A stretch of DNA of 43,819 bases from positions 1 to 43,819 of the forward strand of contig JAQGKS010000041.1 in assembly GCA_028289965.1 (NCBI GenBank), in the 5' to 3' direction. The notes beneath the pieces are model-generated. The model had not been told where the DNA came from, searched no databases, and saw only the letters and a list, made by a program, of their open reading frames with translations. Both the position numbers and the translations under genes were made by a program. Source of the DNA: Sphingomonas bacterium. GTDB taxonomy: Bacteria; Pseudomonadota; Alphaproteobacteria; Sphingomonadales; Sphingomonadaceae. Positions 28,191 to 29,833 of the stretch are shown here, piece by piece. Numbering within the stretch: position 1 is the stretch's first letter; every line of letters starts with the position of its first letter.

Positions 28191-29693
28191 TCAGTCGGGC
28201 ATGTAGCTGTCTTCGGCGTAATCGGAGAATTTGGTGATCTTCGCCTCGAACTTCAGCTTCACCTTGCCGGTCGCGCCGTGGCGCTGCTTGGCGATGATCA
28301 GCTCCGACAGCCCGAACACCCGCTCCATATCCCGCGCCCACTGGTCATGGGCCTCGAACGTCTTGGCGTCGTCGCCGTCGACCGGCCGCTTCGGTTCGCG
28401 CGACTGGGTGTAATATTCCTCGCGATAGACGAACAGGACGATGTCGGCGTCCTGCTCGATCGATCCCGACTCGCGCAGATCCGACAGCTGCGGGCGCTTA
28501 TCCTCGCGCTGCTCGACCGCGCGGCTCAACTGCGACAGCGCGAGCACGGGAAGGTGGAGTTCCTTGGCCAGGGTCTTGAGACCACGGCTGATCTCCGAAA
28601 TTTCCTGCACGCGGTTGCCGTCGCTGGATTTGCCCGAGCCTTGCAGCAGCTGGAGATAATCGACCACGATCATGCCGATCCCGCGCTGGCGCTTGAGCCG
28701 GCGCGCGCGGGTGCGCAGCGCGGCGATCGTCAGGCCGGGCGTATCATCGATGTAGAGCGGCAGCGTCTCGAGTTCGGCGGCGGCGCGCGCCAGGTTGCGG
28801 AAATCGGCCTGGCTGATCTTGCCCATGCGCAGGTTTTCGGAACTGATCCCGGATTGTTCGGACAGGATACGCGTCGCCAGCTGATCCGCCGACATTTCCA
28901 GGCTGAAGAAGGCGACAGGCGCGCCGACCGACTTGCCCTCCTCGATCCCGTCTTCCTTGTCGCGCATGAAGCGCTGCGCCGCGTTGAACGCCATGTTGGT
29001 GGCGAGCGCGGTCTTGCCCATGCCCGGGCGGCCGGCGAGGATCAGCAGATCGGATCGGTGCAGACCGCCGATCCGGCCGTTGACGCTGTCGAGCCCGGTG
29101 GTGATGCCGGACAGGTGCCCGCCGGAATTGAGCGCGCGCTCCGCATTCTCGACGGCCATCTTGGTCGCCTGGCCGAAGCTCTTGACGCTGCCCTGCTCGC
29201 CGCCTTCCTCGGCGACCTTGTACAGCGCGACCTCGGCCGCCTCGATCTGGCTCTTCGGATCGATCGATTCGCTGGTGTCGAGCGCCTGCTCGACCAGGTC
29301 GCGGCCGACCCCGATCAGTTCGCGCAGCAAGGCGAGATCGTATATCTGGCCGGCAAAGTCGCGCGCGCCGATCAGCGCGGCGCCGCTCCCGGTCAGATGG
29401 GCGAGATAGGCCGGGCCGCCCAGTTCGCGCATCTGTTCGTCGGCATCGAACATCGGCTTCAGCGTCACCGGATTGGCGACCATGTTGCGATCGACCAGCC
29501 GCAGGATCGCATCGTAGATGCGGCCGTGGACGGCTTCGTGGAAGTGGTCGGCGCGCAGCCTGACCTGCACGTCCTCGACCAGCCGGTTGTCGATCATCAG
29601 CGCGCCGAGCAGCGCTGCCTCCGCCTCGATGTTGCGGGGAAGCACGGGCCCGTCGGTGGGCGGCGGGGGAACGAGTCGGATCGGTTCGGCCAT
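28191..29693 (-). CDS. dnaB: replicative DNA helicase
   Basis: Hexameric helicase that unwinds DNA at the replication fork. The 500-residue protein has the N-terminal DnaB domain from about residue 20 (NIEAEAALLGALMIDNRLVED) and the RecA-like core with Walker A GRPGMGKTALATN and Walker B MIVVDYLQLL, then LSQLSRAVEQREDKRP. No intein is present. The ATG at 29693 starts MAEPIRLVPPPP; a 168-residue in-frame extension upstream is rejected because it covers the intergenic region and the MarR gene. An inverted pair of DnaA-box sequences lies 51-82 bases upstream. Confidence 0.97.
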   Translation of the reverse strand: MAEPIRLVPPPPTDGPVLPRNIEAEAALLGALMIDNRLVEDVQVRLRADHFHEAVHGRIYDAILRLVDRNMVANPVTLKPMFDADEQMRELGGPAYLAHLTGSGAALIGARDFAGQIYDLALLRELIGVGRDLVEQALDTSESIDPKSQIEAAEVALYKVAEEGGEQGSVKSFGQATKMAVENAERALNSGGHLSGITTGLDSVNGRIGGLHRSDLLILAGRPGMGKTALATNMAFNAAQRFMRDKEDGIEEGKSVGAPVAFFSLEMSADQLATRILSEQSGISSENLRMGKISQADFRNLARAAAELETLPLYIDDTPGLTIAALRTRARRLKRQRGIGMIVVDYLQLLQGSGKSSDGNRVQEISEISRGLKTLAKELHLPVLALSQLSRAVEQREDKRPQLSDLRESGSIEQDADIVLFVYREEYYTQSREPKRPVDGDDAKTFEAHDQWARDMERVFGLSELIIAKQRHGATGKVKLKFEAKITKFSDYAEDSYMPD

Positions 29694-29743
29694 GGGGCGC
29701 CTTGTCCTCTTCGGCGGCCCCGCGCTCAACCGATCATTGCATC

Positions 29744-29775
29744 TTCTCCACAATCGCCTGCGCGCCTGTGGATAA
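29744..29775. promoter_or_regulatory. inverted DnaA-box pair upstream of dnaB
   Basis: TGTGGATAA (29767-29775) is the exact complement of the consensus DnaA box TTATCCACA. TTCTCCACA (29744-29752), on the other strand, differs from it by one base. They are inverted with a 14-base spacer in the 132-base dnaB/MarR intergenic region. Autonomous control of dnaB by DnaA is the simplest reading. Confidence 0.6.
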
Positions 29776-29789
29776 AGCGTCCGCCCCTC

Positions 29790-29833
29790 TTGCCCGGCAC
29801 ACGATGAGCCCCGATACATGTAAGTATGCTTAC
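29790..29833 (+). promoter_or_regulatory. promoter and palindromic operator of the MarR/EmrA pair
   Basis: TTGCCC (29790-29795), 17 bases, GATACA (29813-29818) forms a plausible promoter. Immediately after it GTAAG (29820-29824) and CTTAC (29829-29833) are inverted around TATG. A TAAGTATGCTTA-like palindrome is the kind of site bound by MarR dimers, and its place over the likely start point fits autorepression. Confidence 0.5.

Follow-up and report, generated by a model that had tools for sequence, protein, structure and literature searches.

A conserved DnaA box upstream of dnaB in sphingomonads that probably ties helicase supply to the replication initiator

The window analysed here is a stretch of 43,819 nucleotides from a Sphingomonas assembly (GCA_028289965.1, contig JAQGKS010000041.1), in which the gene on the minus strand is identified by Pfam as that of the replicative helicase DnaB and the divergent gene on the plus strand as that of a MarR protein (Table 1). 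The dnaB reading frame starts at 29693 and the MarR reading frame at 29826; the intergenic gap is therefore 132 bases long. In-frame start codons exist upstream of 29693, none of which is probably the start of dnaB. Position 29693 is favoured because no family alignment begins before the residues MAEPIRL, and because a relative of the same genus (G030) has no further in-frame ATG upstream before a stop. Two 9-mers of the DnaA-box type lie in the gap. Box 1 is perfect, the plus strand at 29767-29775 reading TGTGGATAA, and it supplies the 9-bp match to TTATCCACA expected of a promoter under DnaA control. Box 2 is inverted relative to box 1 and separated from it by a spacer of 14 bases. The earlier note on this DNA had described such a pair, inverted and 14 bases apart, in the dnaB/MarR gap, and the coordinates confirm it.

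Table 1. Features of the dnaB upstream region and of the likely origin (positions in the window unless a locus is named).
Feature	Position	Strand	Remarks
dnaB, replicative helicase, 500 aa	28191..29693	minus	Pfam DnaB_C, E 7e-102; DnaB N-terminal domain, E 9e-22
Candidate -10 element of dnaB, GACAAG	29701..29706	minus	-13 to -8; 17 bp from -35
Candidate -35 element of dnaB, TTGAGC	29724..29729	minus	-36 to -31; conserved TTG
Box 2, TTCTCCACA, one mismatch	29744..29752	plus	-59 to -51 from dnaB ATG
Box 1, perfect DnaA box TTATCCACA	29767..29775	minus	-82 to -74 from dnaB ATG, dnaB coding strand
Likely oriC of the window's genome	L307:1209-1500 (G000:C176)		between hemE and the PPPase gene; three DnaA-like boxes and GANTC sites

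The perfect box is rare in this genome. It occurs once in the window, against a mean of 0.01 in 100 dinucleotide shuffles (one of the 100 reaching a single copy), and twice in the whole assembly (3,007,565 bases, 87% complete), where a reversed control pattern occurs 13 times. By arithmetic from the assembly rate, about 8e-5 perfect boxes would be expected in the 132-base gap. Sites with at most one mismatch number three in the window, against 1.5 expected, and 23 of the 100 shuffles reach three; because one-mismatch sites are not rare alone, box 2 is remarkable only for adjoining box 1. The small probability of a chance origin that the earlier note had assigned to the pair therefore stands for the perfect box, which is far above chance (two copies in 3.0 Mb), but not for the one-mismatch box alone.

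The upstream region of dnaB was compared across the family. The gene was found in 117 of 119 genomes, representing 90 genera (the other two gave no dnaB match at the set limit), and upstream DNA was examined for all 117, the window's genome (G000) among them. The start in each genome is the ATG nearest the alignment-expected point, picked mechanically, and the box positions given here therefore carry some error. In 93 of the 117 genomes a perfect box (24) or one with a single mismatch (69) is located between -120 and -30 of the dnaB start, whereas four control windows of the same width further upstream hold one in 3, 1, 0 and 2 genomes. This is the conservation in relatives that a DnaA-regulated promoter should display, and it answers in the affirmative the comparison across sphingomonads that had been proposed as a check on box 1. 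In the remaining 24 genomes the site has two mismatches in 12 and three or four in the other 12. A count of 8-mers made independently of any motif returns TATCCACA as the commonest in the region, present in 65/117 genomes versus none in either of two control windows. The commonest best site before dnaB is CTATCCACA (31 of 93), the first base of the box being degenerate, and a G follows the box in 66 of the 98 genomes that could be anchored on it. The perfect box occurs 0 to 43 times per genome across the 119 family genomes; even the highest rate (43 in 3.5 Mb) would place only about 0.1 perfect box across all 117 dnaB upstream windows, by arithmetic, against the 24 observed.

The position and orientation of the box are conserved as well: 89 of the 93 boxes are carried on the dnaB coding strand, most of them 60 to 100 bp upstream. 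Single strong DnaA boxes distant from oriC could titrate DnaA, and box 1 might accordingly be a reservoir that plays no part in the transcription of dnaB. Titration, however, needs neither a fixed distance nor a fixed orientation, and we regard this reading as quite improbable.

The gene on the other side of the gap is variable. The divergent neighbour of dnaB is UPF0262 in 83 genomes, MarR in 7, Dcd in 1 and unassigned in 26, and the box is present in 69/83, 6/7, 1/1 and 17/26 of these, respectively; the box goes with dnaB, whatever the divergent neighbour. MarR proteins bind palindromes, and an inverted pair located between dnaB and a MarR gene could in principle be the operator of the latter. 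Against such an assignment, the box is found in 87 of the 110 genomes whose dnaB has no MarR neighbour, and a separate motif, TAAGCAT or ATGCTTA, is located at the MarR start in 7/7 MarR genomes but in only 1/110 of the others. On these two grounds the operator reading of the pair was rejected, with next to no probability left to it. We note that a palindrome, GTAAGTATGCTTAC, at 29820-29833 coincides with the MarR start of the window and is probably the MarR operator.

The inverted arrangement itself is not what the family has kept. Among the 98 genomes anchored on box 1, an inverted second site at an offset of 23 or 24 is found in five, the window's genome included. The offset is 23 in two of these (the window's genome and its same-genus relative G030) and 24 in three (G079, and G039 and G117, both of one genus). 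The inverted pair is thus best described as a local variant; as a conserved unit it was rejected, and the expectation that the boxes would be kept as a pair in relatives fails. Direct second sites are commoner (+11 in 10/98, and -9, abutting box 1 upstream, in 6/98), and G025 and G107 carry a more degenerate TGTGGGCG where the window has its box 2. Box 2 is probably a weak partner site of box 1. An RNA hairpin formed by the two arms was also considered, since the 44-nt stretch folds with a z score of -2.88 and only 2 of 200 shuffles do as well. Although this beats most of the shuffles, the family conserves the second arm poorly, and the predicted transcription start would lie downstream of the stretch; the hairpin was rejected.

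Between the boxes and dnaB lies a promoter-like arrangement, which in the window reads TTGAGC, 17 bp, GACAAG, 7 nt, ATG. In the 117 ATG-aligned genomes, TTG[AC] starts between -37 and -34 at 75 places, and TTG[ACG] is found at -38 to -34 in 82/117 versus 6 and 5 at two control places. An A/T signal is seen at -11 and -10 of the same alignment. The -10-like signal, about 7-12 bp before the dnaB ATG, is family-wide, and the mRNA looks leaderless (29693-29706): the predicted start falls at or next to the ATG, and the dnaB mRNA is thus probably leaderless. A word resembling a Shine-Dalgarno sequence at -15 to -4 occurs in 19/117 genomes, against 0 to 12/117 in controls, a weak signal that, for some genomes, argues slightly against the mRNA being leaderless. 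A scan with an E. coli-type consensus reported no promoter at dnaB, and a search for terminators found none.

Both boxes are upstream of the -35-like element, a usual place for an activator. DnaA could instead bind the box and repress dnaB, limiting helicase when DnaA is plentiful; it is described, in the accessible part of a review, as either activator or repressor (PMC8203912). The boxes, however, precede the -35-like element and do not overlap the promoter, and in M. tuberculosis less DnaA binding accompanies less dnaB expression, as far as the available text of PMC7738170 relates. We consider repression unlikely, although it is the most probable of the alternatives to activation. Control of dnaB by CcrM was examined as well. 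Its site, GANTC, shows no enrichment before dnaB (27/117 versus 26, 20 and 32) and is absent from the last 120 bp before dnaB in the window, and this candidate was rejected.

The host encodes the protein that would bind these boxes. Its genome carries a DnaA DNA-binding domain (Bac_DnaA_C, domain IV) with the sequence GGRDHTTV, a region whose residues contact the box in the E. coli structure. Similar boxes are found at its likely origin of replication: the interval between hemE and the PPPase gene holds CTATCCACA and two copies of TTTTCCACA within 150 bp (the gene names were tested by Pfam in G045; in the window's genome PPPase was assigned by search and hemE by eye). We take this interval to be the likely oriC because of its likeness to Caulobacter, where hemE lies at the origin according to the accessible text of PMC8959179. 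Of the ten genomes examined at this place, four (G045, G089, G030 and G024) have TTATCCACA where the window's genome has CTATCCACA; the latter thus takes the place of TTATCCACA at the likely oriC. In G063 an inverted perfect box is nearby, and G067, G049, G013 and G057 have imperfect sites only. A host that encodes DnaA and bears similar boxes at its likely origin is what a DnaA-regulated promoter calls for. The same comparison bears on whether a different protein recognizes the TATCCACAG core at dnaB, as the degenerate first base and the G after the box in 66/98 genomes might hint; the similar boxes at the likely oriC show the same change of first base. Such a protein and the RNA hairpin, taken together, are very unlikely explanations. 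Very probably, box 1 functions in the dnaB promoter as a site for DnaA.

The other perfect TTATCCACA of the window's assembly, at L083:1501-1509 (G000:C181:12395-12403), lies upstream of mraZ-rsmH, the adjacent genes being identified as MraZ (PF02381, E 3e-9) and RsmH (PF01795, E 4e-70); mraZ-rsmH is the start of the division and cell wall cluster. The only two perfect boxes of the assembly are thus those before dnaB and before mraZ. A Pfam MraZ match was obtained in 26 of 59 family genomes searched, with the window's genome outside the 26. A stricter first count, with mechanically picked starts and a 250-bp limit, found 12/26 genomes with a box of no more than one mismatch (4 perfect), versus 0/26. 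In 300-bp windows anchored roughly on the Pfam match, a box is present in 17/26 (15 perfect and 2 with one mismatch), all on the mraZ strand, compared with 2/26 and 1/26 in controls, a count that is not independent because its limits were set after the box positions had been seen. The accessible text of PMC8959179 reports no DnaA box at mraZ. Tentatively, and at somewhat less than even confidence, we suggest a small, old sphingomonad DnaA regulon, in which oriented high-affinity boxes would drive a leaderless dnaB and mraZ with the dcw cluster, so that DnaA would set both the helicase supply and the division programme.

The wider context of the boxes was surveyed in five genomes, where 30 of the 36 boxes were taken as loci; all 30 were inspected, and flanking reading frames were obtained for 14 of them and for L083. 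Of 80 named loci, 36 were read by eye and stand outside the counts. The perfect boxes of G063, G024 and G049 (L282, L293 and L294, near base 1501) have a longer context in common, ATCCCC-ATATCC-N-TTATCCACAGG followed by GACTC.

Beyond the family, upstream DNA was examined in 68 of 100 matched genomes of the class, mostly better-ranked and hand-picked. Of these other alphaproteobacteria, 29/68 carry a DnaA box, perfect or with one mismatch, within 150 bp of dnaB, versus 8/68, 2/67 and 2/62 in controls further upstream; the link between box and dnaB reaches beyond the family but is weaker there. A different arrangement, TYCACA-N3-TGTGG (two DnaA-like sites inverted across a 3-bp spacer), precedes dnaB in 8/68 class genomes (L201, L210, L222, L223, L224, L235, L242 and L250) and is found in 0/68 and 0/67 further upstream and in 0/117 family genomes, the pattern having been chosen after the sequences were seen. 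Its 3-bp spacer falls short of the 14 bp in the window by about one helical turn.

Taken together, we consider it likely that box 1, as part of the dnaB promoter, is genuinely bound by DnaA, which most likely activates the gene. The analysis shows the sequence and its conservation, its occurrence beside various neighbours, the promoter-like spacing kept in the family and comparable boxes at the likely oriC; we infer that DnaA binds, that it activates and does not repress, where transcription starts, and any timing in the cell cycle. In the proposed mechanism, the replication initiator DnaA would bind box 1, ahead of the -35 element, and most likely activate dnaB, whose transcript is probably leaderless; the replicative helicase would then be made when active DnaA is available. 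The DnaA box would in this way probably tie helicase supply to the start of replication, a connection also reported for Caulobacter and M. tuberculosis. In the lineage of the window, box 2, which is inverted relative to box 1 across the spacer of 14 bp, is probably a weak site that cooperates with it; at this spacing the majority of relatives have either a different second site or none.

The primary paper on the Caulobacter DnaA regulon is Hottes 2005, and a Sphingopyxis genome paper (PMC4741004) reportedly mentions a DnaA box and oriC. Our literature search turned up no description of DnaA boxes upstream of dnaB for sphingomonads, and the dnaB promoter serves only as a tool in the accessible text of PMC6478999. 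A mechanism of this kind is known; to it the present analysis adds conservation across the family, the spacing of the promoter and a parallel at mraZ. Control of dnaB by DnaA, reported for Caulobacter and M. tuberculosis, would thereby extend to a large family, and if the mraZ box is functional too, one initiator would reach the start of replication and the division genes alike. In C. crescentus, according to a review, dnaQ and dnaB have predicted DnaA boxes ahead of them and both belong to the DnaA regulon (PMC8203912). DnaA is also stated to regulate replisome components (PMC4287350, citing the primary regulon paper). By the review's description, the sphingomonad case is alike in its predicted boxes before dnaB, and Caulobacter is of the same bacterial class; the orientation kept across the family, the spacing and a probably leaderless start are what the present analysis describes on the sphingomonad side. 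The Caulobacter gcrA, ftsZ, mipZ and hdaA promoters are likewise DnaA-controlled, with one, two or more boxes, in the available text of PMC3193534; they resemble the present promoter in bearing boxes and differ in the genes they serve. M. tuberculosis DnaA likewise binds ahead of dnaB, and dnaB is under-expressed in a mutant whose binding at that place is reduced (PMC7738170, accessible text); by this description, and across phyla, the DnaA site predicted here upstream of dnaB is alike.
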